64,000 bases of DNA from Sipunculus nudus (lineage: Eukaryota; Annelida; Sipuncula; Golfingiida; Sipunculidae): assembly GCA_026874595.1 (NCBI GenBank), contig CM049313.1, positions 76,066,659-76,130,658 on the forward strand, read 5' to 3'. Positions 1-58,692 of the stretch are shown one piece after another. The notes under the pieces were generated by a model that saw only the letters and a list, made by a program, of their open reading frames with translations, was not told the origin of the DNA and ran no database searches. Within the stretch, counting starts at the first letter, position 1; each line of letters opens with the position of its first letter. The translations under genes were made by a program, and so were the position numbers.

Positions 1-614
1 TTTTATAGAGAAAAAGCTTAAAAACCTTTAAAAATCTTCTACTCTGAAACTGTCCAGCCAAATTGTCCAATATTTCACAGAAATGATCTCTGGAACAATC
101 TCTCTCAAGTTTGTTCGAATGGTTCCAGTTCAGAGATTTTTGGCCGAGTTACAGGAGGTTGAACTTAGTCATCTGTCCAAAAAAGCACACTAAAATTAAA
201 ATCTCAGAAACGGCTGGAGCTATAATGACCAAATTTTATACCAATGTTTGTCACATATGTCATATCTGATTTAGAGGTATTGGTGGCGCCACCTACGTTT
301 ATGTGTTTTTTACAAGCAAAAATGTAATTTTAAACTCTTCTAGCTTATACACTGATTTATGATGAAACTGTTCAGCTGATTGGTTTAAACTTTACAAGAA
401 TTATTCTATGGTAGGGTTCTGCCAGTTTTATAAGAATAGATTGGGTAAATACAGTTTTAAAAAAGCATTGTAGCCAATTGAAAAAAGGCTTTCTGTATTT
501 GAAAATAGATTTGACTTCATGCAGCCAAGTCAAGAGGTCAATCAGTACAAACAGGTGGGGTCCAGACATCACCATGGCAACTGACCTGGCTGGGGGTGGG
601 GGTGTCTAGACAAT

Positions 615-634
615 GTGTCTAGACGTCTAGACAC
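615..634. repeat. perfect 20-bp palindrome
   Basis: GTGTCTAGACGTCTAGACAC reads identically on both strands. One more half-copy, GTGTCTAGAC, lies at 602-611 and a related TCTAGATGTC lies just after. It sits where fam3 sequence stops matching its relatives and before fam1 sequence begins. Confidence 0.85.
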
Positions 635-735
635 AGCATCTAGATGTCTGGATACAATGTTAGATGCAGAATTCCCAGATTATTGGAACTATATCTTTCA
701 ACTGTTTGAAAAAACTTGGTTTGCATTTTAAGCAA

Positions 736-1511
736 ATCGAGTTTATCATCAGGTCACATGTGAACTGCTGCGCCTTCATTTTAAGTTGACCTCTGACCTT
801 TCCTTGCTGCCCAGTGTCCATTTGTGCGTCTGTTTCCACACATAAATCCACATATCTCTGGAACTGTTTGACCTATCAGGCTAAAATTTTTGCACAAATG
901 TAGCCCTTTGATAGCTTTATAACATACACTAAAAATGGTGGCGCCACCTGCAACCATTTTTGCACAGCGTCCATTTTTGTTCATCTGCCTGGGGATAATA
1001 TTACTCATATCTCAGCAGTGGTTTGACTTATCCACCTGAAATTTTGCAGGTTTATACATCCTGGACAGCTTTCTTGATTTTTTATGACAGGTGGCGCCAC
1101 CTACATTCACATTTACTCTGCAGACATCCAAGCTCATATCTCGGGAACCGTTTGACCAATTAGGCCAAAATTTTGCATGTGTATAGATCTCACATAGCTC
1201 TTGGCGCCACCTGCAACCACTTGTGCACAGCATCCATCTGTTGATCTGCCTTGGGATAAAATCACTCATATCTCGGCAGTGGTTTGACTTATCCACCTGA
1301 AATTTTGCAGGTTTATACATCCTGGACAATTTTCTCGATTTTATGACAGGTGGCACCACCTACATTCACGTTTAAGCTGCAGACATCCATGCTAATATGC
1401 AACACACCACGCTCTATTCCCCTTGCCACTTAATCCATGCCTCACTTCACCCAGCCCACTCTGATTTCTGCGGATACACATAGTGGCTTGTCGACTACCC
1501 ATATTCTGGTT
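736..1511 (+). mobile_element. fam1 element, 5'-truncated, nested in fam3
   Basis: The block starts where the sequence matches the fam1 leader (gtcacatgtgaactgctgcg) and runs through palindrome-bearing core units (GGTGGCGCCACC at about 1090) to the fam1 3' end: a GCGGATACAC motif, a stem-loop, and CTGGTT at 1506-1511. The usual 5' terminus is not recognisable. Confidence 0.75.
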
Positions 1512-1683
1512 TTAAAATGTCCTAGTCCGAAACTTGCAGGTCAGAAACGTCCATTTTGCTGAAATCATAATGACTAAGGTAGATATGCAGGACTTAGGAA
1601 GATCAATATTAAATTTTAAAAATAAACCTCCATTCATACTCCTAAACTTTGCACAGGTTCGCATTAGGCCTGTAGGCCTTGTT

Positions 1684-1975
1684 CATTGTCCTGACCTTTC
1701 AAGGACCTTCACGGCAGTGCCCCGGACTTCCATGGCAATGGCACGGACATCCGAGGCAAAGCCCCGTCAAAGCTATAGATGAGCCCCGGATCACCCCGGA
1801 TTACATTCCGCCCCAGATCACCACGACTGGCAGTTTTTGACATCCAAAACTGTTCCGGACCATTCCGGACCATCTTTGACCATCCCGGCAGCGCTACCGC
1901 TTTCCCCCTTAGATCACCCCGGACGTATCTGTGGCACTGCCGTAGATCTGCCGGGTCCTCTATGGGACTTATACT
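1684..1975. other. GC- and CpG-rich interval with CCGGA motifs
   Basis: The interval repeats CCCCGGA and CCGGAC many times in imperfect phrases such as gatcaccccgga and gaccattccgg. Base composition is unlike both flanks. A chance 82-codon frame crosses it but shows no protein features. It may be an old repeat or a regulatory remnant. Confidence 0.4.
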
Positions 1976-4253: not shown

Positions 4254-6133
4254 TTTTTAGCTCAGCTGACTATAAGTCATCTGAGCTATAGTTGTGGTCC
4301 TTTGTCCGTCGTCCGTCTGTCTGTCCGTAAGACTGGCACGTTTTAAAACCGTTGGACCTACGAATCCAAAATTAGCATACCATTAGATGTCCCCAAAATC
4401 TCCTACCATACCGAAAATTGGGTCATTAGGACTTTGTTCCTTCGAGATATTAAGGAAAAACCTCTGTTCTCCATTCAAAAGCCATTGTTACACTTCAAGG
4501 CTGCCTAAAATCAAAACCACTGATATGTTTTTTATCATATTTAGTATTCATTTTCTTCCATACATTTTCTATGAACATACCAAAAATTAGGTCAGTATTG
4601 GGTATTATTTTGAAGTTATTGGCCCAAATATAATGCAATTTTAAAAAAATAGGAAAAAAATATATTTACTCACCTAACATGAGAATTGCTGAACCTAGAG
4701 ATTTTTTTCAGGAATATAACTTTATTTAATCAAGATTCAATTGTTTAACCAAAATTAGATATGAATTTTGCAAATTTGTCAAGTTATTAGCATAAATAAA
4801 AAATCAATACCATAAATTTTGTCCAACTTTGGCAATGGCACGTTTTTTCCCTGTAAGCACTGTTGATTTAATTTTCACAACATATATACATAAGGATTTA
4901 ATCTTTTAAAATCTGAACTTTCAAAGGAATTGATTGAAAAGAGTTACTTTTATTCAAGTTTCCATACACCATGTCAAGTGTTGTTTATATCTAGTCCACC
5001 TGGTAGTACAGCCTTCACTTGCATTATGTAACTGACCCCAGGCAGCTTGCCTTGGCTCAGCTTGGCCACTACTAGTAAGCTTCCCCTCTGCCCTGCACTC
5101 CCCCCCCCCCCCCAGATGGTGCATTAACTAGGTGAATGTTATAATTTTCTTTATTTTATTTTATTCTTGGCTATGCTACATTTTAGATTTTGTATTGTAC
5201 CACCAGGGTTACAATGATTAAAGAGCACATTGAATTGTGTCCACAAAGTGGGGTATTGGTATGAAAGTTTGGATGTTCATCAAATAAGTAATTCGGTACT
5301 TTAGAAAAGTAAAATCTTCACCGGGTGTGAAATTATTAATTCCATTAATAAATCATAGCTGAGATAGTAATTAGCACAATGATATTGTTTGTCCCTCATT
5401 CAACCAACAGTGTGTATACTTTATTTGAAAAGATGTTTTTATTTTATCAAATTTACTGAATCTTTTATTTCAATTCAGTGAATAAAATTAAGCATGTACT
5501 GAAAACTCCAATGAGCAAAACTTTTTAATAGTGATTCAAGGAATAATCTTTTTAGATGCCATGTTGTGGCATTATTTTCTTTTAAATTCAGTTTAAACAT
5601 TTGTGATTTAAAAATAATGAAATATATGTGTATGCATAATATGACCCAATATGAGCTACACTCTGGATATATAATGATTGCAACTTAGAATTCTAATATT
5701 TTAACTTATATTTTCAGTTTTTTTATTACAAATTTATAAAACTTGTAAATAAAAAAAAATGAATCAGATAAAAACTATTAATGGAAAAAGTGGATATGCT
5801 AAAAAATAGGCTTATATATAAACTTAAATGCATTATTCTCTTGAAAGTGAAATAAAGGTATTAGTCCATTATGTCCACTTGCCTGTCCATCTATAAATTT
5901 TTCATATGCATTACAGTATCTCAAACTGTTACTGTTTTTCTTCATGACAGTCTTGTCAGAGTATTAGTTTGCAATCATATATTTAGAACTGTACTATAAC
6001 CAAGTAGGAGGGCCCCTTTCCTCCTAGCTTCTCATATGCTTATATAGATGAAAAACATTACAATAGAATATTTTGCATATGTTGCATATGCAAAAATTTT
6101 CAGCTGAGCGCCATGACCCATTGGTCCCTTGTT
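4254..6133 (+). mobile_element. fam2 element, full length
   Basis: It starts TTTTTAGCTCAGCTGACT, which folds with the following AGTCATCTGAGCT. A GTCC/GTCT microsatellite follows (about 4304-4331). It ends TCAGCTGAGC, then a GACCCATTGGTC hairpin, then CCTTGTT at 6133. GCTCAGCTGA at the 5' end is the exact inverse of TCAGCTGAGC near the 3' end. A C-run (5101-5114) lies inside. Open frames such as the 67-codon one at 4387 recur in other copies as repeat sequence, not as genes. Confidence 0.8.
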
Positions 6134-6841: not shown

Positions 6842-7430
6842 TTTTTTAGCGAACCTGTGAGCTTATGCAATGGCGCTGCGTTGTCCATCTGCCATCCTCC
6901 GTCCACCGTCCAAGGTTGGCTGTCCGCTGTCTATGGCTTTAAGTCAGAAATGGTCAGAGCAAGCAGCTCCAAACATTTTTGCATAGCATCCTTCTGTTTG
7001 TCTGCTGTGGGATAAAATCACTCATATACAAGTAGTGGTTTGACTTATCTGCCTAATGTTTTGCATATGTATATAACTTGGATATCTTTCTGGATTTTGT
7101 GGTAATTGGGGCAACCTACATACACATTTTGGCTGCAGACATCCCTGCTAATATGCAACACACCTCACTCTTTTTCCCCCTTGCAATTCAATCCATGCCT
7201 CACTTCACCGTTCCCACTGTTATTTTGGCTCTTGCCTGTCAGCTACCTGTATTCTAGTTTAAAAATGTCCTAGTTCGAAACTTGCAGATCCGAAATGTCC
7301 ATTTTGCTGAAATCTTATGACGAAGGTAGATATGCAGGACATAAGAGGATCAATATTAAATTTTAAAAATAAACCGCCATTCATACTTCCAAACTTTGCA
7401 CAGGTTAGCATTAGGCATGTAGGCCTTGTT
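6842..7430 (+). mobile_element. fam3/fam1 composite element, short copy
   Basis: It opens TTTTTTAGCGAACCTGTG and ends CACAGGTTAGC, TTAGGCATGTAGGCC, TTGTT at 7430. The middle (about 6950-7258) is the 3' portion of fam1, ending CTAG at 7255-7258 and followed by the same aaaatgtcctag sequence as in the 1-1683 copy. The fam1/fam3 junction is therefore shared by two copies. Confidence 0.7.
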
Positions 7431-9230: not shown

Positions 9231-9278
9231 ATTGTATCCGCCAAAACAGAGTTTTGCGGATACTATGTTTTCAGCTGG

Positions 9279-9281
<3 letters not shown>

Positions 9282-9314
<33 letters not shown>
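9282..9314. repeat. GCC trinucleotide microsatellite
   Basis: An uninterrupted run of gcc/ccg units just inside the 5' end of the fam1 element. Shorter, interrupted versions occupy the same place in the copies at 30205, 33839 (inverted) and 50761, so the site is part of the element and varies in length. Confidence 0.9.
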
Positions 9315-9315
<1 letters not shown>

Positions 9316-9482
9316 GTAGGTGTCCGGAGAACTCCTCCGTAACCGCTGGGCGGAATTTTCCGAAACCCGGGATTATGTTCGGGTCACATGTGAACTGCTG
9401 CGCCCCGATTTTGTTTTGACCTCTGACCTTTCCTGTGCGCTCTGCGTCCGTTTGTGCGTCTGTTTCCACACATAAACCCACA

Positions 9483-10700
9483 TATCTCGGGAACCGTTTG
9501 ACCGATCAGGAAAATTTTTTTGCACAAATGTAGCCCTCGGAGAGCTTTATAACATACACCAAAAATGGTGGCGCCACCTGCAACCATGTTTGCACAGTGT
9601 CCATCTGTTCGTCTGCCTTGAGTTAAAATCACTCATATCTCTGCAGTGACTTGACTAATTCACCTGAAATTCGGCATGCGCAAACATCCTGGATAGCTTT
9701 TCTGATTTTATGACAGGTGGCGCCACCTACATTCACGTTGACGCTGCAGACATCAAAGTTCATATCTCGGGAACCGTTTGACCGATCAGGAAAATTCTTT
9801 TGCACAAATGTAGCCCTTGGAGAGCTTTATAACATACACCAAAAATGGTGGCGCCACCTGCAACCATGTTTGCACAGTGTCCATCTGTTCGTCTGCCTTG
9901 GGTTAAAATCACTCATATCTCTGCAGTGACTTGACTAATTCACCTGAAATTTGGCATGCGTATACATCCTGGATAGCTTATCTGATTTTATGACAGGTGG
10001 CGCCACCTACATTCACGTTTACGCTGCAGACATCCAAGCTCATATCTCGGGAACCGTTTGACCGATCAGGAAAATTCTTTTGCACAAATGTAGCCCTTGG
10101 AGAGCTTTATAACATACACCAAAAATGGTGCCGCTACCTGCAACCATGTTTGTACAGTGTCCATCTGTTTGTCTGCCTTGGGTTAAAATCACTCATATCT
10201 CTGCAGTGACTTGACTAATTCACCTGAAATTTGGCATGCGTATACATCCTGGATAGCTTTTCTGATTTTATGACAGGTGGCGCCACCTACATTCATGTTT
10301 ACGCTGCAGACATCCAAGCTCATATCTCAGGAACCGTTTGATTGATCAGGAAATTTTTTTTGCACAAATTTAGCCCTTGGAGAGCTTTATAACATACACA
10401 AAAAATGGTGGCGCCACCTGCAACCATGTTTGCACAGTGTCCAGCTGTTCGTCTGCCTTGGGTTAAAATCACTCATATCTCTGCAGTGGTTTGACTAATT
10501 CACCTGAAATTCTGCATGCTTATACATCCTGGATAGCTTTTCTGATTTTATGACAGGTGGCGCCACCTACAATCAAGTTTACGCTGCAGACATCCAAGCT
10601 CATATCTAGGGAACCGTTTGACCAATTGGGCCAAAATTTTGCATGTGTATAGTTCTCACAAAGCTCTTTATCATACGCTAAACTGGTGGCGCCACCTGCA
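9483..10700 (+). repeat. 280-bp higher-order tandem array with GGTGGCGCCACC
   Basis: The 12-bp palindrome centres near 9571, 9721, 9851, 10001, 10281, 10411, 10561 and 10690, with a mutated copy near 10131. Spacing alternates at about 150 and 130 bp. The two half-units resemble each other (CATATCTC-G, TTGAC, AAATT, GCATG, AGCTTT, palindrome), so the 280-bp unit is a dimer of diverged monomers of about 140 bp. Confidence 0.85.
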
Positions 10701-10958
10701 ACCCTTTTTTGCACAGCGTCCATCTGTTTGTCTGCCAAGGGCAAAAATCACTCATATACAATATAGTGGTTTGACTTATCTGCCTTAAATTTTGCATATG
10801 TATACAACTTGGACGGCTTTCTGGATTTTTTGGTAGGTAGCGCAACCTACATACACAATTTGGCTGCAGACATCCATGCTGATATGCAACACTTCACCCG
10901 TTCCACTCTGATTTAGGCGGATACAAGTAGTCGCTTGTCGACTACCCGTATTCTAGTT

Positions 10959-12998: not shown

Positions 12999-15358
12999 TT
13001 TTTAGTGAACCTGTGAGCTTATGCGGTAGTGTGGCATCATCTGCATGTTAACCCATACTACCATAAATTCTGCAGGAGCCAGCATCACCAAATTTTATGC
13101 AAAAAATGAGACATCTAAGTAACTCTATAGAATTTTCCCCAATTTGTTTGCTATCTGCATTTACTTAGATTTTATCAAGAAAAAGCAAGAAAAACTTTAA
13201 AAATTGTCTTCTCAGAAATTGTTGAGTCAAATGTTCAGTATTTCACCGAAATAATCCCTGGATCAATCTCTCTCAAGTGTGTTCGAATGGTTCTAGTTTG
13301 GCGAATTTTAGCTGAGTCACACTAAGCTGAACTTAGTTATTTTGCATTTTGCAAAAAAGGTATACTAAAATTACAATATTAGAAACAGCTGGAGCTATCA
13401 TCACCAAATTTTATGCAATGTTGGTAACATGAGTTATTTGACATTGAGGTATTGGTGGCTCACCTTCATCTACCTTTTTTGTACAGGGGTCATTGGTCAT
13501 CAGTACATTAACCATAATTTCTCAGGAAAAGCAGGTGCTAGCATCCCCAAATATTATGAAAAAATTTGTCCCATATAAAATGTTGTGGGATTGAACATTT
13601 TGTGTTTCCACCTGCATCAACTTACATTTTACCAGGAAAAAGCTTGAAAACCCTTTGAAAATCTTCTTCTCCAAAATCATTCCAACAGATTGGGCAATAT
13701 TTCACAGAAATGATCCCAAAGACAAGTTTTCTCAAGTTTGTTCAAATGGTTTAAGTTTAATAAATTTTGGGCGAGTAAAAGGAATTTGAACTTAGTCATT
13801 TGGCCGAGTAAGCTTTACTAACATAATAATCTCAGAAACAACAGGAGCCAGCATCAAGTTTTCATGCAAATGTTGGTCACATTACTTATATTTGAAATTG
13901 AGGTTTTTGTTGCGCCACCTACATTGACCTTTTTCTACAGGCAAAACGTCGTAATTTTAGCTTCTTTCAGCTTGAAAATATTTTATGATAAAACTCTCAA
14001 GCTGAATGGTTTAATTTTTCACAAGAATTATCCTAGGGTAGGGTTCTTTCAATTGTATCAGAATAGATTTGGTTCATTGATATGTTGGTCTAAAGGGCAT
14101 TAGTAAGCCTATTTCAAACCAAGGGCTGCAATAGTCTTCTTCTGCAAAACTGTTTTAACTATGTATTATTCATAGGTGGCCTTTGTTCAGATTTACTTAA
14201 ATGATTCTTTGCATAGTTATTGCATCTTTAATAATGAAAGGACTGTGAGATACTTCAGTAAACAAAGTTAGTAGATTTATTGTGTTAACAAACTGAACTC
14301 TTTGATTATATAAGCAGAGCTGTAAAGGCAACAAATATTGGTCTACATCCAGCTTATGTATAATGTTAATCTATGAATAAAATATATCTGTATTCTGATT
14401 TTGCTTTCGATAGCATCTGTTATTATTCAATACTATATGATAAAAATCTCATGAATATATCAGCTTGAAAAATTAATTGTAGCCACAGTCTTTCAGTATG
14501 TGTAAACAGATTTACCAACAGGCCAGCATTGTATCTGTATCTATAAATAGCTTTGCAGACTGCCTACTATTTCAGATTTTGCAACAGGCCAAGTTTCAGT
14601 CTATCTATTTATAGCCTTGGCACACTGCCAGATGTATCAGATTAGGCAATTGGTCTAGAGTCCAGACAGTACAGCCTATTGCAGGTATAGAGTTCACTCA
14701 GTGCAGTAGCTGCAGCTGGTAATTTGTTCTGGTTCACCTTTGGAAAATTTCTTCCTCAGCTGTGCTTGGTCAGCCAAGTGCACCTGACTCAAGGGAAGTT
14801 TGATGTATTGGCCTAAATTTTTTACTTGTCCATACATCTGTGATTGCTTTCACGGATGACTGGTGTCGCCACCTCCAGTGATTTTTGCATAATTTATGTC
14901 CCTGCTTATTTCTCAGGAAGGATTTGTTATATCATCTTGAAATTGGGCATTTTTAAATATCTCACATAGCTTGTCACATACAAGACTTGTGGGGCCACTT
15001 ACAATTGTTTTGGGCTCATATCTCTGCACATAGCTCAAGAGTGGTTTGAAGTATCTGCCTGAAATTTTACTTTTCTATACATATTTGATGACTTTCTCCT
15101 ACACAAGACCAGTGGCGCCAACTACAATCATCTTATGTTGAGTACTTCTATTCCAGTATTGCAGGAGTGATGTTTGTGTAATTGGTGTTTGCACTTCAAT
15201 TTAAAATGATCAGTTATTGCATTGTACATGTGCATGTCACATTTTCTTGAAAAGTTATCAAGTACTTTTCAAATAATGGTCAAGCATGTTATCATGGAAG
15301 CATTATACCTGATGTATATCCCATTGCCCAGGTTTGCATAAGGCCTGAAGGCCTTTTT
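12999..15358 (+). mobile_element. fam3 element, old full-length copy
   Basis: It starts TTTTTAGTGAACCTGTGAGC and ends CCAGGTTTGCATAAGGCC, tga, AGGCCTT at about 15354. The first 1.1 kb matches bases 1-560. The later part (about 14720-15150) is decayed fam1-like core with tggcgcca and cgccacct remnants. The stretch at about 14110-14700 has no match here. Divergence suggests this is the oldest fam3 copy. Confidence 0.65.
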
Positions 15359-23906: not shown

Positions 23907-23908
23907 AA

Positions 23909-25606: not shown

Positions 25607-25629
25607 GGACTCACTTTGTACCTGTAATA

Positions 25630-30175: not shown

Positions 30176-30204
30176 ACTTTTATTTTATTCATATTCATTT
30201 AGTC

Positions 30205-37678: not shown

Positions 37679-37698
37679 GGCAAGTGTGGGATGATAAA

Positions 37699-37885
37699 TA
37701 CAGTAGAACCTGTGAAATAAGACCACTTGTGGGACTGGCTAAAAGTTGGCTTAATTTCACATGTGGTCTTTATTAGACAGGTCAGTTATATAGCCAATTA
37801 TGAATATGTTTCGTTCACTTAAGAGTGGTCTTAATAGAAAGGTGGTCTTAAAACACTGGTGGTCTTTAAGACAGGTTGCACTGTA
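37699..37885. mobile_element. mariner-like MITE
   Basis: A 187-bp element with ends TACAGTAGAACCTGT and ACAGGTTGCACTGTA: 15-bp inverted ends with two mismatches, flanked by TA on both sides. The interior repeats the phrase tggtctt. It has no coding capacity. Confidence 0.7.
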
Positions 37886-46288: not shown

Positions 46289-47187
46289 TTTTTTAGCTCA
46301 GCTGACTATGAATAATCTGAACTATAGTTGTGGTCCTTTGTCCATTGTTCGTTCGGCCATCAGTTAACAGAGAATGTTTTGAAACCGTTGGACCTATGAA
46401 TCTTAAATTTTGCATACAGTTAGATGTCCCCTAAATCTCCAACCATACCGAAAATTGGATCACTAGGACTTTGTTCCTTTGAAATATTAAGGAAAAACCT
46501 CTGTTTTCCATAAAAAAGCTATTGTTACACTTCAAGGCTGCCTTATATCTAAACCATTGATCTGTTTTTTTATCATATTTAGTATTCATATTTTTCCATA
46601 CATTTTCTATTATCATACTAAAAGCTTTTTTTCAGGGATATAATTTTATTAAATCAAGATTCAATTGTTTACCCAAAATTAGATCTGAATTTTGCAATTT
46701 TTTAAAGTTTTTAGCATAAATAAAAAATCAGTCCTTAAATTTTGTCCAAATTAAGCTATGGCACATTTTCCCCCTGTAAGTACTATTGATTTAATTTTCA
46801 CAGCATATATACATAGGGTATTAATCTTTTAAAATCAGAAATTTCAAAGGAATTGATTGAAAAGAGAAGCTTTTATTCAAGTTTTCATTCACCATGTCAG
46901 GTTTTGTTTATATCAAGCCCACCTGGTAGTATAGCCTTCACTTGTGTTATGTAACCCTTTCCAGGCAGCTTGCCTTGGCTCAGCTTGGCCCCTACTATAT
47001 ATATATATTATAGCAGGCTTCCCCTCTGCTGTGTACCCACCCTTCCCCAAGCTGGTGCATAAACAAGATGGATGTTATAATTTTCTGTATTTTATTTATT
47101 CTCATTCTAGGCTATGCTACATTTTAGATTTTGTTTAGTACCAACAGGGTTACAGTGATAAATGTGCACATTTTTGGTTTGAAAGAT

Positions 47188-47193
47188 TTTATT
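47188..47193 (-). terminator. LINE poly(A) signal AATAAA
   Basis: On the minus strand AATAAA lies 14 bases before the 3' end of the LINE at 47174, which closes with a short A-run next to the 14-bp target duplication. Confidence 0.65.
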
Positions 47194-47508
47194 GATACAA
47201 AGAATACAAAAGGCGTACAGTAATGGTAAAAGTATACAAGCAGTGTATCAAAGGGATTTGGGCGCAAGCCGTAGGCTTAGATTTGCCCGTTCCCTTACAA
47301 TAAAACAGACATTAATTCAAAGAGATGACATATATAGGGGTGCATGTAATGAATTGTTAGCAGATGGTAATGGTAAATAAAATGTTAGTATAATATCGTG
47401 TGTGTTTAATGCAATGTTGGTTTGTTGGATGTGATATAATAGAGTTAATGTTGGGGTTTGTATAGTGACTTAATGCTGAGTTTGACCTGGTTGTTAGAGT
47501 ATACTGTT

Positions 47509-48035
47509 TTATGTTTTGAAATGATTTGTCTCTGTAATGTATACTGAGACTAGTTGAAAAATTTTGATATTGTCTGCTTGTTTTAATTTGGTATCTCCAA
47601 GTAATAAAGTTTTAACAGGTAGGTTGGACAGGTATTTCTTTCTATGAGTTGAGTAGAGAGGACATTGAAGAAAGAAATGATTTTCGTCCTCCACCGGATG
47701 ACCGCACAGACAGGACATGGTATCAGATACATGGCGAAGGAATTTGTGATAATTCAGATTACTGCATCTTATCCTTAGTCTTGCGTGTGCAATTTGGGAT
47801 GTTCTTGAACCTGAGTTTAAATATTTTGGTGCTTTGTTGTTGCCAAGTATCTTCCTTTTAAGAGTGTTTGGTGATAATATATATCTTTTTTCTCTATCTA
47901 GTGCATTCCACAGCCTGGTGGTATGAAAGATTCATAGTATAATTCAGTTCTAGCCAAGATAGGTGTGAATGTCAGAGCATCAGAGCGGGTGAAGTGAGAT
48001 TGCGTTTTAGGAGGGGGAAGGAGTATGTAAAGATA
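47509..48035 (-). pseudogene. LINE ORF2 C-terminus with zinc knuckle
   Basis: Beyond the stop at 48036 the same frame reads FTRSDALTFTPILARTEL, then shifts to HTTRLWNALDRE. The final open frame (47718-47509) begins MSCLCGHPVEDENHFFLQC, a CxCx8Hx4C finger typical of the C-terminal end of CR1/Jockey-group ORF2. The finger is thought to bind nucleic acid. Two breaks separate it from the RT. Confidence 0.75.
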
Positions 48036-49253
48036 TTAGGGTACCTCTTTATTTATCATTTTGCGAAAAAGGCATAGCTGGTTTGATTCCCTCCTTTGTT
48101 TGAGTGTTGACCATTTTGTTTCCATATATAATAGATCATGGCTTGTACCTTTTACTCCTCCTGTTACAATTCTAGCTGCCTCCAGTTGTACATTTTCTAT
48201 TTTGTTAGAAAGACTTTTAGACAAGTTGGACCAAACAGTGTTGGCATATTCCAGAATAGGTCTAATGTAGCTGAAGTAAATGTTCTGTAGAGTCCGGTGA
48301 TCTAGTAGGTATTTACATTTTCTAAGAATGATCATTCTTTGGTTAGCTTTAGTAGTTATGTTGTGAATATGTTCATCCCATTTACCATTGGATTGGAAAG
48401 TAATTCCAAGATGTTTGTGACTAGAAGTGGTTTTTATTTTTACATTATTTAAAAATAGATCTGGATGATTTGTTTTAATAATCTGTTTAGAAAATATCAT
48501 GGATTCAGTTTTGTTTGCATTGAAGGTAGATAACCATGTTTTTAACCATTTATATATCTTTTTCAAGTCATCGTCCATCATTTTTGCAGCAGTTGTTGGA
48601 TTTTCGACAGGTAGGAAAATCATGGTGTCGTCTGCAAAGAACCTGACATTGCAGGTCAAGTCATTTGTTATATCATTGATGAAGATTAGAAATAATAATA
48701 GCCCTAGAATAGAACCTTGAGGTACTCCGGCATGGAGTGCTCCCCACTGAGATTCAGAGTTGTCTACGATGACTCTTTTTCTATTAGTGAGATAATTTTC
48801 GAGCCAGAGTATTAATTTTCCCCGAATGCCTTGGGACTGTAATTTGCTAAGCAAACCTCTATGCCAGACTTTATCGAATGCCTTGCTCATGTCGAGATAG
48901 ACAGCTCCGACTTCTTTGTTATGTTTGAGTTCAGTGCATAAGGAGTTGTAAAGATCTGTGAGTTGGTTGACGGTGCAGTCACCTGGTATGAAGCCAGACT
49001 GGTGAGGAGAAATTGTATTATTAATTTTGAAAAAGTTATACATTGGTTTGAATATTATTTTTTCCATGACTTTGCATATGCAACAAGTTAGTGAGATTGG
49101 CCGGCAGATTAAAGGTTTTGATTCATTTCCTTTTTTGTATATTGGTTTCACATTTGCCTTTTTCCATATTGAAGGTAGAGAAGAATGTTTGAATGAGGGG
49201 TTAAAGATTAAGGTAATGGGATATGCTAATTCATTAGAACATTTATTTAACAT
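48036..49253 (-). pseudogene. LINE reverse transcriptase (ORF2)
   Basis: The longest open frame of the window, 405 codons. It copies LINE RNA at the nicked target. RT blocks in order: RPISLTCCICKVMEK (residues 51-65), HQSGFIPGDCTVNQL (84-98), motif A YLDMSKAFDKVWH with catalytic D121, motif B GVPQGS (176-181), and motif C FADD (206-209) with both catalytic aspartates. Motif E-like HLGITF and a thumb region follow. After GVPQGSILG the usual proline is leucine. The frame ends at a stop at 48036, but related sequence continues in the same frame beyond it, so the stop is a mutation. The start ATG is only the first in the surviving frame. Confidence 0.9.
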
Positions 49254-49487
49254 TTATATGGGTGAATATCATCTGGGCCTGGTGCTTTATTTGTGTCAAT
49301 CGATCAAGTTTAAGTAGCCCTGTACTTCGGAAATTTAAAAAACTATCATTAAGCATGTTTTTATTTATGCGTTTCAAGAGGGGAGTGGGTATAGCTGAAT
49401 CATTGATGACGGTTTCTTTAATAAATTGTTGATTGAGGGTTTCAGCTTTAGAAAATGGGGTAACAGCTAGTATTCCATCTTCATTTA

Positions 49488-49793
49488 CTAGGGGGAGGGG
49501 GGTAAAGATTGAGATTGGTTACCTTTTAATAGGGAGTTCACAGTTTTCCACCATTTAGATTTGTTTTGTAAATTGGATTTCAGTTTACAGGCTAGTTCTA
49601 GTGGATAGTTTGTTTTTGCTTTCCTAACTTCATTATTGAAATTGTTTCTTATGATTTTATAACTATTCCAGTGGTCTTCTGTTCTAGTTCTCGTTGCTTT
49701 GTTTCTTGATCGTAGTACTTTTCTTTTGAGAATTTTGAGGTCTTTTGTAAACCAAGGTTTATGTTTGGGTTGAGTAGTCACCTATTTGTTAGG
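49488..49793 (-). pseudogene. LINE ORF2 pre-RT segment
   Basis: It continues from CIPN across the MITE. After one stop the frame (49781 down to 49488) reads HKPWFTKDLKILKRK and then KWWKTVNSLLKG, the PWWT/PWFT-type segment that precedes the reverse transcriptase of CR1/Jockey-group elements. It ends in a G-rich interruption near 49488. The next 230 bases toward the RT are still LINE sequence but out of frame. Confidence 0.8.
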
Positions 49794-50609
49794 TAGTGTT
49801 GGGACGATATGGGTTTTTGATATCATGATAATTATTCAAATTTTATCGTGATATACCGTGATATCGCGATATTTTTAATTATATATAATGGCATTAATAA
49901 GCCTTCAGTAATGATATTTATAACAACCGCCTTTGTTTTGACCTTATACAAGGGGTTAAGTATTAATATCATTTATACCTATTGTGCCAGTACCACAGAA
50001 TGACTCATTCAGTGATGTAAGTTGCATGAAGGTCCTGCAGGTGTTCAAGCTTGAGGCGCGGGAAGTCCTGCCCCCATCATCAAATCATGCTCGTCAGAAC
50101 TTTCCATCAGTTTCCTATAGCTACATAAAAGCCGGAGAATTTTCAGAGAGCGTGTCATACCAATCATGGCTAAATATACCATCCCAATTTTATATGGTAA
50201 AATATGCAACCTGTATGGAATGTTCGATTCAGTTGTGACACTTTCATTTTGACATTTTCGTTCTATGCAATAAAAGCATAAATATGTGAATTTATTGCTC
50301 TTTCATTACAATGTTATTTTGTCCTGGAATTCTGATTCATCCTGCTACTTCCGGACATTTCTGACTAATCCCGAAGTCTGTAAGCACACGGTTTCACCCA
50401 CACGCGTGTATTTAAATACATGTGGTTTATGAAAAGTAATGTGATTCTCTGAAATAAATTTATTTTGAATCTCAAGGGCTTGCTTGTGAACCAAAATCGT
50501 GAACAAAATTGTTATCATGGTATCGCGATAATAGGAAAGTTGACGGTATGATAACCGTAGCTGTCAGATATCGTGATAATACCGTATACCGGTAACCATC
50601 CCAACCCTA
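49794..50609. mobile_element. hAT-like MITE, 816 bp
   Basis: Ends TAGTGTTGGGACGATA and (inverse of the other end) TAGGGTTGGGATGGTTA are terminal inverted repeats. The flanking 8-bp target duplication is TTGTTAGG at 49786-49793 and 50610-50617. The subterminal regions are rich in atcgtgata and atcgcgata. An 84-codon frame inside is not gene-like. It was inserted into the LINE ORF2. Confidence 0.85.
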
Positions 50610-50760
50610 TTGTTAGGTATACATTTGTGGGCTATGTCACTAATTTTTGCGATTAGGTTGTTATATGAATTTTCAATATCTTGAGTTATTAAATCGTTCC
50701 AGTTGGTTTGTGCAAGTAATTGATTCATTTCATCATAGTTTCCTTGAGAGTAATTCCATA
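50610..50760 (-). pseudogene. LINE ORF2 linker segment
   Basis: A short piece between two insertions. One frame reads WNYSQGNYDEMNQLL through to AHKCIPN, the usual region between endonuclease and reverse transcriptase in CR1-like ORF2. It is bounded on the right by the fam1 copy (50761) and on the left by the hAT-like MITE, whose target duplication is 50610-50617. Confidence 0.75.
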
Positions 50761-52305
50761 ATTGTATCCGCCAAAACAGAGTTTTGCGGATACTATGTTT
50801 TCAGCTGCACGCCGCCGCGGCCGCCGCGTAGGTGTCCGGAGAACTCCTCCGTAACCGCTGGGCGGAATTTTCCGAAACCCGGGATTATGTTCGAGTCACA
50901 TATGAACTGCTGCGCCTCGATTTTGTTTTGACCTCTGACCTTTCCTTTGCGCTCTGCGTCCGTTTGTGCGTCTGTTTCCACACATAAACCCACATATCTT
51001 GGGAACCGTTTGACCGATCAGGAAAATTTTTTTGCACAAATGTAGCCCTCGGAGAGCTTCATAACATACACCAAAAATGGTGGCGCCACCTGCAACCATG
51101 TTTGCACAGTGTCCATCTGTTTGTCTGCCTTGGGTTAAAATCACTCATATCTCTGCAGTGACTTAACTAATTCACCTGAAATTGGGCATGCGTAAACATC
51201 CTGGATAGCTTTTCTGATTTTATGACAGGTGGCGCCACCTACATTCACATTTACGCTGCAGACATCCAAGTTCATATCTCGGGAACCATTTGACCGATCA
51301 GGAAAATTCTTTTGCACAAATGTAGCCCTTGGAGAGCTTTATAACATACACCAAAAATGGTGGCGCTACCTGCAACAATGTTTGCACAGTGTCCATCTGT
51401 TTGTCTGCCTTGGGTTAAAATCACTCATATCTCTGCAGTGACTTGACTAATTCACTTGAAATTTGGCATGCGTATACATCCTGGATAGCTTTTCTGATTT
51501 TATGACAGGTGGCGCCACCTACATTCACGTTTACGCTGCAGACATCCAAGCTCATATCTCAGGAACCGTTTGACCGATCAGGAAAATTTTTTTGCACAAA
51601 TGTAGCCCTTGGAGAGCTTTATAACATACACCGAAAATGGTGGCACCACCTGCAACCATGTTTGCACAGTGTCCATCTGTTCGTCTGCCTTGGGTTAAAA
51701 TCACTCATATCTCTGCAGTGGTTTGACTAATTCACCTGAAATTCGGCATGCTTATACATCCTGGATAGCTTTTCTGATTTTATGACAGGTGGCGCCACCT
51801 ACATTCACGTTTACGCTGCAGACATCCAAGCTCATATCTAGGGAACCGTTTGACCGATTGGGCCAAAATTTTGCATGTGTATAAATCTCACATAGCTCTT
51901 TATCATATGCAAAACTGGTGGCGCCACCTGCAGCCATGTTTGCACAGCTCCCATCTGTTTGTCTGCCATGGGATAAAATCACTCATATCTCGGCAGTGGT
52001 TTGACATATCTGCCTAAAATTTTGCAAGTTTATACATCCCGACAGCTCTCTTGATTTTATGACAGGTGGCGCCACCTGCATTCTAGTTTATGCAGCAGAT
52101 ATCCAAGCTCATATCTTGGGAACCGTTTGACCGATTGGGCCAAAGTTTTGCATGTGTATAGAGCTTTCTGGATTTTTTCGTAGGTAGCGCAACCTACATA
52201 CACAATTTGGCTGCAGACATCCATGCTAATATGCAACACTTCACCCGTTCCACTCTGATTTAGGCGGATACAAGTAGTCGCTTGTCGACTACCCGTATTC
52301 TAGTT
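50761..52305 (+). mobile_element. fam1 element, full length, inside LINE ORF2
   Basis: It starts ATTGTATCCGCC and ends in the stem-loop plus CTAGTT at 52305. Core units carry GGTGGCGCCACC. The LINE reading frame resumes in register when the insert is removed (SKF joining WNYSQG). No long target duplication is present. Confidence 0.9.
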
Positions 52306-52919
52306 TAAATTTAGAGGGTGGAATCATATTTAAAAACAGTCTAGTTTTGCGAATATCCTACAGTGGTCACTATAGTGTTGAGGGAAGATGCCTGTTTGTA
52401 ATATGTTGTCACCTACATTGCTAATAATAATATCTAATAGAGATTTGCTATGATATTTTATCCTGGTGGGTTGAGTAATGTGCTGGGTTAGGTTTAGATT
52501 ATTAATTATAGTTTTGAGGATTGGTTCTGGTTTGTCAATCAGGAGATTGCAGTTCAGGTCACCAGTAATTATGTGTTTGAGCAGGGGAATGGATGTTAGT
52601 TCTTCAAAATATTCCTGTAACATTGACCATTTATCAACTGTTTGGTTGGGGGGTTTGTAGATAATTGTAACCAATAGAGGATAATTTAGCTTTAATATCT
52701 TGATACATATTGTTTCGAATTCAGCTGATTCTAGGTCAGGTCGTCTTTTAAAGAATATATGCCTTCCTTGATGTATACAACAATGCCCCCTCCGTGTCTG
52801 TTCCTGTCTTTCCTTATGGGTACACTGTAATTTGGAATGGAAATTTGTTCATTACTAATGTTGTCATCTAAATGTGTTTCAGTAAAACCTATTACTTCAG
52901 TCTTCTATTTCTGATATTA
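52306..52919 (-). pseudogene. LINE ORF2 endonuclease domain
   Basis: The AP-type endonuclease nicks target DNA to prime reverse transcription. The frame continues from NKID at 56699 into ISEIED at 52919, then IGFTETHL (catalytic Glu). Next come the glycine-rich segment RHGGGIVVYIKEG and IYKPPN, then GDLNCNLL (residues 38-41 of the frame starting at 52674 hold GDLN) and SDHCRIF (SDH motif). Frameshifts occur after ISEIED, after DDLT and after LDCF. The last coding bases before 52306 (SKF) rejoin WNYSQGNYDEMN beyond the fam1 insertion. All the main motifs are still readable, so decay is moderate. Confidence 0.85.
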
Positions 52920-55900
52920 ATTGTATCTGCCAAAACAGAGTTTTGCGGATACTATGTTTTCAGCTGGCCACCGCGGCGTAGGTGTCCGGAGAACTCCTCC
53001 GTAACCGCTGGGCGAAATTATAGAAACCCGGGATTATGTTCATGTCATATGTGAACTGCTGCGCCCCCATTTTGTTTTGACCTCTGACCTTTCCTCTGCG
53101 CTCTGCGTCCATTTGTGCGTCTGTTTCCACACATAAACCCACATATCTCGGGAACCGTTTGACCGATCAGGCTAAAAATTTTATACAAATTTAGCCCTTG
53201 GATAGCTTTATAATATACATTAAAAATGGTGGCGCCACCTGCAACCATTTTTTAACTGTGTCCATCTGTTCATCTGCCTTGGGATAAAATCAGTAAAATC
53301 TCTGCATTGGTTGGACTTATTCACCTGAAATTTGGCATGCGTATACATCCTGGATAGCTTTTTAGCTCAGCTGACTATAAGTCATCTGAGCTATAGTCGT
53401 GGTCCATTGTCCGTCGTCCGTCTGTCTGTCCGTCCGTCCGTCTGTAGATGTGGCACGTTTTGAAACCGTAAGACCTAGGAATCCAAAATTCGGCATAATG
53501 TTAGATGTCCCCAAGATCTCCTACCAAGCCGAAAACTGGGTCTTTGCAACTTCGTTCCTTTGAGAAATTAAGGAAAAACCTCAATTTTATATTAAAAACC
53601 TATTTTCACACTTCAGGACTGCCTAATATCAAAACCACTCATCTGTTTTTCCTCATATTTACCATAAATATTCCTCTATATAGTTCCTATGTACATGCCA
53701 GAAATTATGTCTGTATTATTTAATTTAAAAAAGTTATGGGCCCAAACATAATGCATTTTGTAAAAAATCAGGAAAGATATTTGATCACTTAATACAAAAA
53801 ATGTTAAAGCTATGGACCTTTTTTCCAGTAATATAACTTTAATTAATCAAAATTAAATTGTATACCCAAAATTAGATGAAAATCTTTTAAATTTTTTAAA
53901 ATATTAATAAAAATAAAAAATTGGTACCTTAAATTTTGCCCAACTTTGACCATGGCACGTTTTTTTCCTGTAAGTACTGTGGATTTAATTTTCACAGCAT
54001 GTTTTTGTTAGCATTTCAACTGTTAACACCAAAAATTTGAAACCAGTTGATCAAAAACTGTAGATTTTAATCAAGTTTTCAAGCACCATGTAACATATTG
54101 TTTACATCAAGCTAGTATTATGCAGTTTGCAAGAGCTCGGCTCCCCAGCTTCAGCTCTAAGTTCCTTAAATTCGGCATACAGTTAGATGTCTCCAAAATC
54201 CCCTACCATGCCAAGAATTTGGTCACTAGGACTTAATACCTTCGAGATATTAATGAAAAACTTCATTTTTCAATTAAAAACCCATTGTTACACTTTAAGA
54301 CTGCCTAATATCAAAACCACTGATCTGACTTTAATCATAAATAATATACATATTTTTCATTCTCTATGCACATGCCAGAATGATGTCAGTATTGCTTAAT
54401 TGTTTTAAGTTATGGGCCCAAACATAATGCACTTTGTAAAAAATCAAGAAATATATTTATCCCTTAACAAGGGCATTGCTGAAGCTAGAGATTTTTTGTC
54501 AGGGATGTAACATTTTTTAATCAAGATTCAATTGAATACCCAAAATTAGTTCTGAATTTTTCAAATTTTATAAGTTATTAGTATAAATATAAAATAAGTA
54601 CCTTAAATTTTGCCCAACTGTGACCATGGCACGTTTGTTTCCCGTGAGCACTGTTGATATAATTTTCATATCATGCACACATAAGGATTTCAGCTTTTTA
54701 GTTTAGAAAGCTGAAAGAAATTGGCCAAAAATTGTAGCTTTTATTAATGTTTTTTATGAGACCCTGTCACACTTTGGCTCTCTCCTGCCCCTCTTGAGTC
54801 ACCTGTATGTTGACCTTGTTGACCTTTCATCAAATTATGCACGCTTGAGGCGAGGCATACAGGAATCCAGGCAGCTTATGGCCAGCCACAGTTGATCCAG
54901 GTGTCCAACCTAACTCATCTAGTAGTTTTAACAAACAACATAACAATAAACAATAAATTAATAAATTTTTATTGGTTTTTAATAACAAATTAAAGAAAAA
55001 TAGAAAAGGAATTTGTTAGTTTATAATAACAGGAAATTAACTTGCAGTTACTGATGATATAAGAATCTTGTATCAATGGGTAGAATGTCACATATTCCAA
55101 ATAACACCATGCAGTCACCTATGGCATTTTTCAGTTCAATTTTAATGATAAAGAAGTAAATCATATTATTCATTACTAATCATTAGGGATCATATGAAGG
55201 AAATTAATGATAGACAAAGAAGCAGTTGATAATATTAATCTAGATTCCTACTGTGTCTAGTGTGTACATTGATGTGAAATTAGTCCAAAATGAATTTTTT
55301 ACAGTTATTTTTTAATATAAATAAAAGCCATAAAACCAGGTACTTATGATCATTATTTAAATGTGTGAATTTTGTATATTCTGGATTCTCAACATCATTG
55401 TTTGGTGAAAACTGAATAAATACCAGACATGGTGCGAATACTTTGTAATTGTATTTAAATACGAATATGATTATATACTCCATTATAAAATTTCTTGCAT
55501 AAAGAATGGGAAATCAGGTAAAAATGAAAGTATGTGAATACCAGTGCAAATACTTTCAAAATGTATTCATGAGTGCATTCATGAATATATTCTTTAATAT
55601 TATTTTAATAATCATATCAGTTATATTTCATTTTAAAAAAAGTTAAACTCTTATATTATATGTTCTGCTTATAAGTTATATGGACAAGTCAAAATCTGTG
55701 TGACAATAGTACTCCATTTGTTAATAAAATAAATGAAATCAATCCTCTTCCCTGTCTCCAAAGGTACTATCAAAATCATACATAAGCTAAACAACAACAA
55801 CTCATAATACAGCTTATATAAATTACCACACAAAACCAGCATGTGTCTCATTTCTAAATAATATTTTTTATCATATATAACAGCTGAGCGTCGTGACCCA

Positions 55901-56698
55901 TAGGTCCCTTGTTTTGATTTTGTGACAGGTGGCGCCACCTACATTCATGTTTACGCTGCAGACATCCAAGCTCATATCTTGGGAACTGTTTGACCGATTA
56001 GGCTAAAAATTTTATACAAATGTAGCCCTTGGATAGCTTTATAAAATACACTAAAAATGGTGGTGCCACCTGCAACCACTTTTGCACAGCGTCCGTCTGT
56101 TTTACTGCCCAGGGATAAAATCACTTATATCTCGGCAGTGGTTTGACATATCCACCTAAAATTTTGCAGGTTTATACATCCTGGATAGCTTTTTCGATTT
56201 TGTGACAGGTGGTGCCACCTACATTCTAGTTTACGCTGCAGACATCCAAGCTCATATCTCAGGAACTGTTTGACCGATTAGGCCAAAATTTTGCATGTGT
56301 ATAGATATCACATAGCTCTTTACCATGCACAAAACTGGAGGGGCCACCTGCAACAATTTTTGCACAGCTTCTGTCTGTTTGACTGCCGTGGGCTAAAATC
56401 ACTCATATCTCTGTAGTAGTTTGACTTATCTGCCTAAAGATTTTGCATGTTTATACATCTTTTATTGCTTTCTCGATTTTTTTTGGCAGGTGGTGCCACC
56501 CACATTTATGTGACAGCTTTCTGCATTTGTGGTAGGTGGCGCTACCTACATATACATTTTAGCTGCAGACATCCATGCTAATTTGCAACACACCTTACTC
56601 TTTTTTCCCTTGCCACTCAATCCATGCCTCACTTCACCCATTCCACTCTGATTTCGGCGGATACACGTTGTCGCTTGTTGACTACCCGTATTCTAGTT
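52920..56698 (+). mobile_element. fam1 element inside LINE, split by fam2
   Basis: The left part (52920-53360) has the 5' hairpin end with one substitution (TATCTGCC) and stops in catcctggatagctttt. The right part (55914-56698) resumes at gattttgtgacaggtgg and ends CTAGTT at 56698. Removing it rejoins NKID with ISEIED of the LINE endonuclease in frame. Confidence 0.85.
53361..55913 (+). mobile_element. fam2 element nested in fam1
   Basis: It starts TTTAGCTCAGCTGACTATAAG with a long GTCC/GTCT run. It contains two direct units of about 680 bp (from about 53460 and about 54140) homologous to 4330-5000. It ends CAGCTGAGCGTCGTGA, then CCCATAGG, TCCCTTGTT at 55913. It entered a T-run of fam1. It is the youngest layer at this point of the stack. 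Confidence 0.85.
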
Positions 56699-57035
56699 GG
56701 TCAATCTTATTGACTAAGCTACGTACGTTAAGGTGATAAATACTAAATGTGTTTTGGATACTGTTCGGACCGGGATTTGTTTCTACATCTCCGGATAGCA
56801 ACATCCTCAGAATTACTAATATTTTTAGTCTATTATTGTGATAGGGGAGTTTCAGTATAATAGTTATTATAAGAGACCATTTGTGTTTGCTTTTTTTGTC
56901 ATAGGTGGTAGTTACTAATTTCAAAGTTTTTATAAGATGTTCTATAACTGTTATTGCCAATATTGGTTGGGATATTTTGTTTTTTTTATGTGAAGTAACT
57001 AAATGTTTGTGCACAGTGACGAAAACATACCTCAT
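56699..57035 (-). pseudogene. LINE ORF2 N-terminus with 2A-like motif
   Basis: The frame begins with ATG at 57035. Residues 82-90 are GDVETNPGP (56766-56792), preceded by hydrophobic LVILRMLLS. This fits the 2A consensus D-(V/I)-E-x-N-P-G-P, at which the ribosome fails to form the Gly-Pro bond, giving two proteins from one frame. Such motifs are established near the ORF2 N-terminus of AP-endonuclease LINEs from sea urchin, molluscs and lancelet. After it the endonuclease domain starts (FSIYHLNVRSLVNKID), and the frame is then cut at 56698 by the fam1 insertion. An 84-codon frame upstream (56986-57240) overlaps it. Activity is an inference from the motif. Confidence 0.75.
56766..56792 (-). other. 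2A-like ribosome-skipping motif GDVETNPGP
   Basis: All consensus positions (D, V, E, N, P, G, P) are kept, and a leucine-rich stretch precedes the motif. The predicted skip is between G89 and P90 of the frame starting at 57035. Confidence 0.75.
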
Positions 57036-57255
57036 TTGAGTTAGTTGACAGTTGAATTAGGATGTGACGGTTATTAAAAGAACTGTAGGTTGAAAAACCT
57101 AAGGTAAAAGTATTGAAGAATTGAAACTGAGAGTACATAAATCTGTGAGGAGGTGGAGAAATAATGCTGTGAGTGATGGAGTTCATGGAGGTCGGACGAC
57201 GTTCTCTATTGTTATTGTCACATATCCGGTTCCAGGTCATTTGAGAGGTTAGAGT

Positions 57256-57795
57256 TCATGCCGTGGATTGGTTGCCAGGGCTGTTATTGTCTTTGGTCAT
57301 CAAGTTAAAAAAAGCGATGTATTTTTCAAGTTTAGATTCATCTTTTATTAATGTTGGGGAATCAAGTTCATCTTCTTTGACGTATATTTGTCCATTAAAT
57401 GTCCAAACCGATTTGATGTTGAATTCTTTTGTTTTTTTCCAAGTTTTGAAGAATAAATCCTGTTGTTCTTTAGTCAGATTTTCGTTGATGTATATTGATT
57501 GGTTTTCCAGTTTTAATCTTCTGAGTTTAGCTCTAGCTTTGTGAATTTTAGCTTTGGTCTGGCGGTTTGTCAGTTTCACCATGATTTTCTTGGTTTCTCA
57601 GGATCTTTCTTTCCTATTCTTGATACTTCTTCAATTTCTGAATTGTTAATGTCCAAATCCATTTTTTCAAATAATTTCTTCCCTTGTTCTGTTGGATTTT
57701 CATTGTGTTTTTCCTGTAGTCCGTTGATTATAATATTTTTCATTCTGGATTGACTTTCTGCTACAGAAAAGTTTGATTCCAGGCTGATGCATCTT
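57256..57795 (-). pseudogene. LINE ORF1 protein remnant
   Basis: ORF1 of CR1/L1-like elements encodes an RNA-binding chaperone that coats the LINE RNA. The first part is read in one frame from the truncated 5' end and includes MKNIIINGLQEKHNENPTEQ. It hits a stop near 57590. The match resumes one base out of register at MVKLTNRQTKAKIHKA and runs to 57256 through a basic helix-rich stretch and the segment INENLTKEQQDLF. The pattern (I-I-NG-, then -RIGKK-P-KPR, then V-LTNRQTKAKIHKAR-KL) is that of the RRM-like and C-terminal domains of such proteins. One frameshift and loss of the N-terminus make it a pseudogene. The zinc-knuckle or coiled-coil part, if any, is missing. Confidence 0.65.
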
Positions 57796-58692
57796 TTTTA
57801 AATGTGCACATTTAATTGGGTCCACAAAGTGGTTTATTGCTATATGAAAGTGTGGATGTTCATCAGATAAGTAATTCTTTCCTTCATGAGAGTAAAAACT
57901 TCACCAGGTGTGAAATTGACTATTAATTTGCGCAAAAAATTATAGCTGAGATAGTAATTAGCACTGATGTTGTTTGTCCCTCATTCAACTAACAGTGGGT
58001 ATACTTTATTTGAAAAGATGTTTTTATTTTATCAAATTTACTGAGTCTTTTACTTCAATGAATAAAATTAAAGCATGTACTGAAAACTTCAATGTGCCAA
58101 ACTTTTCAATAGTGATTCAAGGAATAATCTAGAACATGCAAGGTTGTAAATATAATAAAAATAATAATAAATATGTGTATGCATAATATGACCTGATATG
58201 AGCTTCACTCTGGATAAATAATGATTGCAACTTAGAATTCTGAAATCTTATATTTTTAGATTTTTTTTCAGATTATTACAGATTTATAAAACTTGTTAAT
58301 GTAAAAAATTAATCTGATAAAAACTATTGATGGAACAAGTGGATATGCTAAAAATATAGGCTTAAATATTAACTTAAATGCATTATTCCCTTGAAAGTGA
58401 AATAAAGGTATTAGTCGATTCTGTCCACTTGCCTCTCCATCTGTAAATTTTTCATATGCATCACAGTAATATCAAAACTGTTACTATTTTTCTTCATGAC
58501 AGTCTTGTCAGAGTATTAGTTTGCAATCATATATTTAGAACTTTACTATAACCAAGTAGGAGGGCCCCTTTCCTCTTAGCTTCTCATATGCTTGTATATA
58601 TGAAAAACAATACAATAGAATATTTTGCATATTTTGTATTTGCAAAAATTTAAAATAATCAGCTGAGCGCTGTGACCCATGGGTCCCTTGTT

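Follow-up and report, generated by a model that had tools for sequence, protein, structure and literature searches.

Repeat families at the locus

The window analysed here, a 64,000-nucleotide stretch of the Sipunculus nudus genome (contig CM049313.1, positions 76,066,659 to 76,130,658), carries a LINE and copies of four repeat families, fam1 to fam4, which we take to be HINEs (non-autonomous Helentrons). Among the open reading frames listed for the window, no host gene stood out. The features are given below, with subTIR for subterminal inverted repeat and IR for inverted repeat.

<1-1683, +: fam3 element, 5' end outside the window; 3' subTIR 1652-1662, hairpin 1666-1679, TTGTT
~725-1510: 5'-truncated fam1 copy inside the preceding fam3 element, keeping the fam1 3' subTIR and hairpin
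4260-6133, +: fam2 HINE; subTIR GCTCAGCTGA at 4260, inner IR TCATCTGAGC at 4277, GTCC/GTCT microsatellite; 3' subTIR at 6100, hairpin 6115-6126, CCCTTG-TT
6849-7430, +: fam3 HINE, with a fam1 3' portion (6964-7262) within fam3 ends
9232-10956, +: fam1 HINE; TTGTATCCGCC, inner IR GCGGATAC, CGC microsatellite, five 280-nt core units; 3' subTIR at 10916, hairpin 10927-10945, CCGTATTCTAG
13005-15354, +: older fam3 element, containing tandem units of its own and, at ~62%, a fam1-like core
21155 to ~22750, +: fam2 HINE, with a 72-bp tandem array at 21994-22454
23910-24058, +: fam4 HINE of 149 bp; subTIR, inner IR, short GTCT-type microsatellite, no tandem core; 3' subTIR at 24026, hairpin 24042-24051, CCTTG-TT
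30206-31117, +: 5' part of a fam1 copy, truncated at about 30952-31011
31118-33838, -: fam1 copy on the opposite strand, with an internal 1,267-bp duplication (30892-31191 matches 32159-32458 at 99%)
46296-47173, +: 5' half of a LINE-interrupted fam2 element, with a 15-bp duplication, TAAATGTGCACATTT, at 47159-47173
47174-57798, -: LINE, split by two fam1 insertions; reverse transcriptase 48036-49253, endonuclease parts 52330-52848 and 56682-57056
50762-52301, +: fam1 HINE within the LINE, with CCATAA/TTTAAATT as its exact empty site (slash marks the insertion point)
52921-56696, +: fam1 HINE within the LINE and split by fam2, with GATATTAA/TTGGTC as its exact empty site
53365 to ~55912, +: fam2 HINE in a T-run of the fam1 core, its 5' unit repeated with a ~680-bp period
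57799-58692, +: 3' half of the fam2 element begun at 46296, the 15-bp duplication repeated at 57799-57813

The 5' ends of fam1 lie at 9232, 30206, 50762 and 52921 (+) and at 33838 (-). Its 3' hairpins lie at 10927 and 52274 (+) and at 31130 and 32397 (-), and a further, degenerate one spans 56657-56696. An open reading frame at 21948-22406 that looked coding was rejected, as it is the 72-bp tandem array. The nesting dates activity: fam2 was followed by the LINE, then by fam1, then by fam2 again, showing that activity of the three was interleaved.

A shared terminal plan

In the window and in genomic copies, the four families share the plan that a preliminary description had assigned to them: a motif at the 5' end that recurs in inverse close to the 3' end, followed by a 3' hairpin and a CTTG/CTAG-TT tail. 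All of the terminal motifs it quoted are found in the window, at positions consistent within each family. The subTIRs (11-15 bp) lie near both ends of the repeats, the palindrome is restricted to the 3' end and lies just inside it, leaving the two ends asymmetric, and in all families TTA/TNA precedes the 5' subTIR and CTTG/CTAG-TT follows the hairpin. A further HINE hallmark, which the preliminary description missed, is a second inverted repeat located immediately internal to the 5' subTIR (GCGGATAC in fam1, TCATCTGAGC in fam2 and GGGGGACTA in fam4). This inner repeat and the 5' microsatellite, an arrangement of the DINE-1/oyster type, are clear in these three families; in fam3 the microsatellite, previously described for every family, is weak, and a search for a second inverted repeat inside the 5' subTIR saw none.

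Other details of that plan need amendment. The families had been called unrelated in sequence, which does not apply to fam1 and fam3, as the fam3 copies at <1-1683 and 6849-7430 include core sequence of fam1 together with its 3' end. Tandem core units are absent from fam4, which is only ~110-150 bp long, and the fam1 hairpin and CTAG, given as contiguous, are separated by 7 nt. In most genomic copies of fam4 the sequence is GCAGGGGACTA, which complements the 5' TAGTCCCCTGC perfectly; the mismatch seen in the window's copy is a minority variant. Canonical Helitron ends (5'TC and 3'CTRR, with no subTIR) are found in none of the families: fam1 has TT...CTAG with subTIRs, and the others have CTTG.

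Collecting genomic copies, as had been proposed, shows that these ends are widespread. A scan of the 1.43-Gb genome with 3'-end patterns of 30-34 nt, allowing up to 3 mismatches, found near-complete 3' ends numbering ~10,344 for fam1, ~25,268 for fam2, ~11,252 for fam3 and ~104 for fam4. Reversed patterns of the four ends, used as a control, gave 0 matches genome-wide, and the matches are therefore not due to chance.

A coding element with fam2 ends

In this genome Helentron Rep/PIF1/endonuclease genes are numerous, and some have intact frames; the proposed search for such genes between family ends succeeded for fam2. A ~14.9-kb element (C17:35625479-35640360, minus strand) carries both fam2 ends around a 2342-codon frame; its 5' end, GTTTTTA-GCTCAGCTGACTGAAAGTCAACTGAGC followed by a GTCC/GTCT microsatellite, is as in fam2. 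This C17 element is 98% identical to one on C5, and the two diverge right after CACTTGTTT. The predicted protein contains a Rep domain (Helitron_like_N, E 5e-27) with the motif GSPHIH; GSPH, with S between G and P, has been reported as a Helentron Rep signature (PMC4067079). Fused to it in one protein are a PIF1 helicase (E 6.5e-23) and a C-terminal endonuclease, the combination that marks Helentrons. The endonuclease match is weak in C17 itself (Exo_endo_phos, E 4e-4, 20.5 bits, below the cut-off) and clear in a relative on C13 (Exo_endo_phos_2, E 4e-8, above the cut-off). From its sequence, C17 is a putative autonomous Helentron with fam2 ends.

This pairing extends beyond one element: a fam2-type 3' end lies downstream of Rep in 12 of the 16 loci of the C17 Rep group (rough chance probability 5e-15). 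Since fam2 HINEs and the coding elements have only about 36-40 bp of their ends in common, descent of the HINEs by deletion from a coding element is not established.

Insertion sites

Two fam1 insertions, whose junctions were searched singly against the genome, have exact paralogous empty sites, with three paralogues each, and a third, natural empty site lies inside a relative of the C17 element. These sites place the fam1 joints to the base: the ends are TT...CTAG, the site is AA|TT, and there is neither loss nor duplication beyond the ambiguous TT. For fam2, fam3 and fam4, empty sites were read from nesting and flanks, with no exact paralogues; for fam2 and fam3 these are consistent with insertion into a T-rich or TT site without target duplication.

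The repeats are short, non-coding and abundant, with inverted motifs near both ends, as would be expected of MITE-like DDE transposons with subterminal repeats. Such an origin is extremely improbable. The ends are asymmetric, the hairpin being confined to the 3' end; the six paralogous empty sites of fam1 show no target duplication except an ambiguous T, and TIRs with a fixed-length duplication are not seen in this family; and it is Rep and helicase, not a DDE transposase, that lie between fam2 ends. A DDE origin is already contradicted for fam1 and fam2. The Helentron-like guild suggested in the preliminary description, which had proposed defining ends from empty sites, is upheld by the fam1 sites, exact and lacking DDE-type duplication, and by the presence of Rep/PIF1/endonuclease genes, one group of which has fam2 ends.

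Other Rep lineages

A Rep ~33% identical to that of C17 has different ends, GCGGGGGCATTC-GTGTCGTTCCGACAC-ATCTAGTT, present in 4,295 genomic copies; two copies of this type, at 99% identity, both stop at CTAGTT. Between the autonomous end types the hairpin shows a compensatory change (TGACCCATGGGTCA versus TGGCCCATGGGCCA), and coding Helentrons other than the C17 type end in CTAGTT with subTIRs. Because fam2 ends are found on 12 of 16 loci and other ends on the ~33%-identical Rep, end type appears, as judged from these sequences, to track Rep lineage.

Among the 3' flanks of 26 Rep loci, no fam1, fam3 or fam4 end belongs to a coding element (about 0.4 chance matches per family are expected in these flanks). 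Three candidates were rejected: the fam1 ends near C17/C5 are those of a HINE nested in a Helentron, the fam1 match at L047 is to a 5' end lying on the opposite strand, and the fam3 end at L079, which has 138 bp of homology to a fam3 HINE, accompanies a broken Rep fragment, has no helicase beside it and appears to belong to a HINE of its own. A second intact Rep group, the C11 type (~31%), could serve fam1, fam3 or fam4; no end was found for it (L011-L028, L045, L046, L049, L078), the 99% identity between two copies spanning the whole stretch compared.

The preliminary description had left open whether several replicases or one serve the four families. A single Helentron replicase with loose end recognition, the end differences being neutral drift, would fit the shared geometry, the TTA/TNA and CTTG/CTAG-TT of all families, the overlap of their activity in time, and the fact that coding elements in the main Rep group bear only fam2 ends. 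We consider this improbable: fam2-type ends follow one Rep group, the C11 type offers a second candidate source, and the different ends of the ~33%-identical Rep favour several replicases with matching ends.

A separate question is whether fam1 is a Helitron or proto-Helentron-type element, not a Helentron derivative. Its exact AA|TT empty sites and TT...CTAG ends recall proto-Helentron-Pi of Phytophthora infestans, for which 5'TT, 3'CTAG and insertion between A and T are reported (PMC4067079). Unlike that element, fam1 has the subTIRs, inner inverted repeat and 5' microsatellite of the HINE plan; CTAGTT also terminates other coding Helentrons of this genome, which have subTIRs, and the TT is equally explained as the Helentron TT target. 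We regard this assignment as rather unlikely.

Proposed mechanism and relation to known elements

We propose that the four families are, very probably, HINEs copied in trans by the Rep-helicase-endonuclease of full-length Helentrons. In this model, the Rep domain would nick the 5' terminus and the helicase would peel off one strand, with the 3' subTIR and hairpin acting as terminator; the strand would then be joined into a T-rich site (A|TT for fam1) without a target duplication of the cut-and-paste type. End recognition would be specific to the Rep lineage, the fam2 ends belonging to that of C17.

The HINE terminal plan has been described before, in Drosophila, mite and oyster (PMC4067079, PMC7492417). 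Cg_HINE of Crassostrea gigas resembles the Sipunculus nudus families in its 11-12 bp 5' subTIR, inner inverted repeat, GTCY-type microsatellite, central tandem repeats, 3' subTIR followed by a palindrome, and T-rich target without duplication (PMC7492417). Oyster Helitron-like elements likewise combine, at their ends, features of Helitrons (CTAG, A|T) and of Helentrons (subTIR) (PMC7992393). The Helentrons and HINE/DINE-1 elements of Drosophila, mite and Culex share with ours the terminal plan, Rep (S between G and P), PIF1, endonuclease and TT target, and fall into several end families within a genome, with coding partners (PMC4067079); here the coding partner is that of fam2, and in contrast to those HINEs, fam2 HINEs have only their ends in common with it.

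HINEs spread satellite-like tandem repeats through the oyster genome, yet two studies did not find the elements that mobilise them: no autonomous Helentron could be related to Cg_HINE (PMC7492417), and no autonomous element was detected for the Helitron-like elements (PMC7992393). The full-length coding element with fam2 ends is new here, and is the kind of partner missing from both. The assignment of the fam2 ends (about 25,000 copies) to particular full-length Rep-helicase-endonuclease genes, some of which have intact frames, provides a known protein and known ends with which mobilisation and end specificity can be tested.

Strand coherence

Nearby copies share a strand across families, in 95% of cases at 5-20 kb and in 50% beyond 1 Mb. 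This coherence takes in copies of five end families over tens of kilobases, and we found no description of such a pattern in PMC4067079. In the window the elements stand at 12:1 (+ versus -), and T5+ runs outside them number 115 (+) and 109 (-); oligo-T availability was rejected as the cause.

One tentative explanation, which we hold as possible though doubtful, is that Helentron insertion is polar: as a replication fork or transcription bubble passes, a single-stranded intermediate would be joined at one of its strands. If so, the direction of forks or of transcription in an animal genome would be preserved, as in a fossil record, in the orientation of its HINEs, and that orientation would show the stage of the cell cycle at which rolling-circle elements integrate.

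Terminal anatomy and insertion sites

All motifs quoted in the preliminary description were found in the window (C8:76066659-76130658, within a genome of 1.43 Gb) in an order consistent per family, and fam1-fam4 each have the proposed plan: a subterminal inverted repeat (subTIR) on the 5' side and again, inverted, on the 3' side, followed by a hairpin and a tail of CTTG-TT or CTAG-TT. Non-autonomous Helentrons (HINEs) share this plan (PMC4067079, PMC7492417), and fam1 has the same TT...CTAG ends and A|T site as proto-Helentron-Pi. An A after T-rich DNA precedes the 5' subTIR in most copies; directly inside it, a partial inverse of the subTIR occurs in fam1, fam2 and fam4 and was not seen in fam3. 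A microsatellite follows the 5' end in each family, with varying clarity. The tandem core ascribed to all four is absent from fam4 (~110-150 bp); the form of this family met most often in the genome, GCAGGGGACTA, complements its 5' motif perfectly. Pattern searches (<=3 mismatches) found 10,344 fam1, 25,268 fam2, 11,252 fam3 and 104 fam4 3' ends in the genome; backward-read control patterns of these ends gave 0 matches. A 98-bp tandem repeat (36909-37790, ~7 copies, 98% identity) lies outside any recognised element.

Empty sites define the ends of fam1. Joined flanks of two LINE-nested copies, used as queries, each recovered three uninterrupted paralogues, exactly restoring GATATTAA|TTGGTC and CCATAA|TTTAAATT in alignment around termini TTGTATCC...TATTCTAG. 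As originally reported, there is no clear target duplication: none beyond an ambiguous TT, and no loss. The fam2 copy at 53365 entered a T-run of a fam1 core, and additional T's at its joints are assignable to neither side, as likewise described for HINEs (PMC4067079).

Coding Helentrons with fam2 ends

Oyster HINEs could not be related to any autonomous partner (PMC7492417), and none was detected (PMC7992393). Here, Rep/helicase genes flanked by family ends were found for fam2, the one family among fam1-fam4 with a coding partner seen in the 26 Rep loci examined:

C17:35625479-35640360, minus strand: full-length coding Helentron with both fam2 ends, ~14.9 kb

This element starts with GTTTTTA-GCTCAGCTGACTGAAAGTCAACTGAGC and a GTCC/GTCT microsatellite and ends in TCAGCTGAGCATCATGACCCATGGGTCACTTG; a C5 relative, 98% identical, diverges directly after CACTTGTTT. 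The C17 frame encodes DUF6570, a GSPHIH-bearing Rep and PIF1; an endonuclease match at its C terminus is weak here and clear in a C13 relative. The final 36 bp of a C7 element match the window fam2 end at 58659-58694 at 97%. In 12/16 C17-type Rep loci the flank that was read contains a fam2-type 3' end (C17, C5, C7, L048, L051, L052, L054, L057, L059, L060, L076 and L077; rough chance probability 5e-15), and the remaining four (C13, L050, L056 and L058) show none there. Sub-types of this end on coding elements differ by a compensatory hairpin change. At L052:1347-1970, two successive 3' ends of different sub-type lie 590 bp apart, the tail of the first damaged, a possible end bypass.

The Helitron_like_N profile has 143 matches in the genome, in frames reaching 2426 codons. 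Rep matches concentrate in few multi-megabase zones, perhaps gene-poor heterochromatin (C1 ~63-72 Mb, C7 ~46-50 Mb, C14 ~41-44 Mb and C8 ~28-30 Mb).

L053, whose Rep is ~33% identical to that of C17, terminates instead in AGCGGGGGCATTCGTGTCGTTCCGACACATCTAGTT, as does L055, 99% identical to L053 across the last 395 bp; this end type has 4,295 genomic copies. Since fam2-type ends accompany C17-type Reps and other ends this Rep, ends appear, from sequence comparison, to track Rep lineage. The C11-type Rep group (~31%) has GSPHAH, PIF1 and endonuclease. Intact Rep-helicase-endonuclease loci of this type lie at C11:50377000-50396500, C7:31567851-31573851 and C7:31582851-31587351 (L029-L030, L061-L063). 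No boundary was found for its ends: two copies are ~99% identical throughout the >19 kb compared, with long repetitive tails, and are either very large elements or a recent segmental duplication.

Nesting and hitchhiking

The families are less separate than their description as unrelated implied: fam3 copies at <1-1683 and 6849-7430 hold a fam1 core and fam1 3' terminus within fam3 ends. In L006 and L056 an identical left flank borders the fam1 copy, which suggests that a single fam1 insertion multiplied along with its carrier. Insertions of the families are also layered:

46296-58692: nest of four levels, a LINE within fam2, two fam1 within the LINE, a further fam2 within one fam1

The halves 46296-47173 and 57799-58692 form one fam2, interrupted by the LINE, on either side of which 15 bp, TAAATGTGCACATTT, are repeated exactly. 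Two fam1 copies interrupt the LINE and a second fam2 one of these, so fam2 moved both before and after fam1. At 30206-33840 a fam1 5' part faces a fam1 copy in the opposite orientation, within which 1,267 bp are duplicated at 99%.

One HINE family hitchhikes within another's coding element: the fam2-ended C17 and C5 Helentrons (L041-L042, L036, L040) carry a fam1 upstream of the replicase gene, and the C13 relative lacks it and has an empty counterpart of the site (roughly 73% identity).

Strand coherence

Among 3' ends of five types on C1 (0-104 Mb), pairs agree in strand in 95% of cases at 5-20 kb, both within and between families, in 66-84% at 20-100 kb and in 50% beyond 1 Mb. In an independent set, the strand of end type A was predicted correctly in 29/32 cases from the closest element of another family lying no more than 20 kb away (p 1.3e-6). 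Duplication cannot easily produce the between-family agreement. Gene-strand effects may do so, as may fork-coupled integration; bacterial single-strand transposons show orientation linked to the replication fork (PMC5371812). Within the window, A/T-run availability does not explain the coherence; 12/13 elements there lie on the plus strand, and the DNA between them is skewed, on that strand, towards T relative to A (+5%) and towards G relative to C (+4%).
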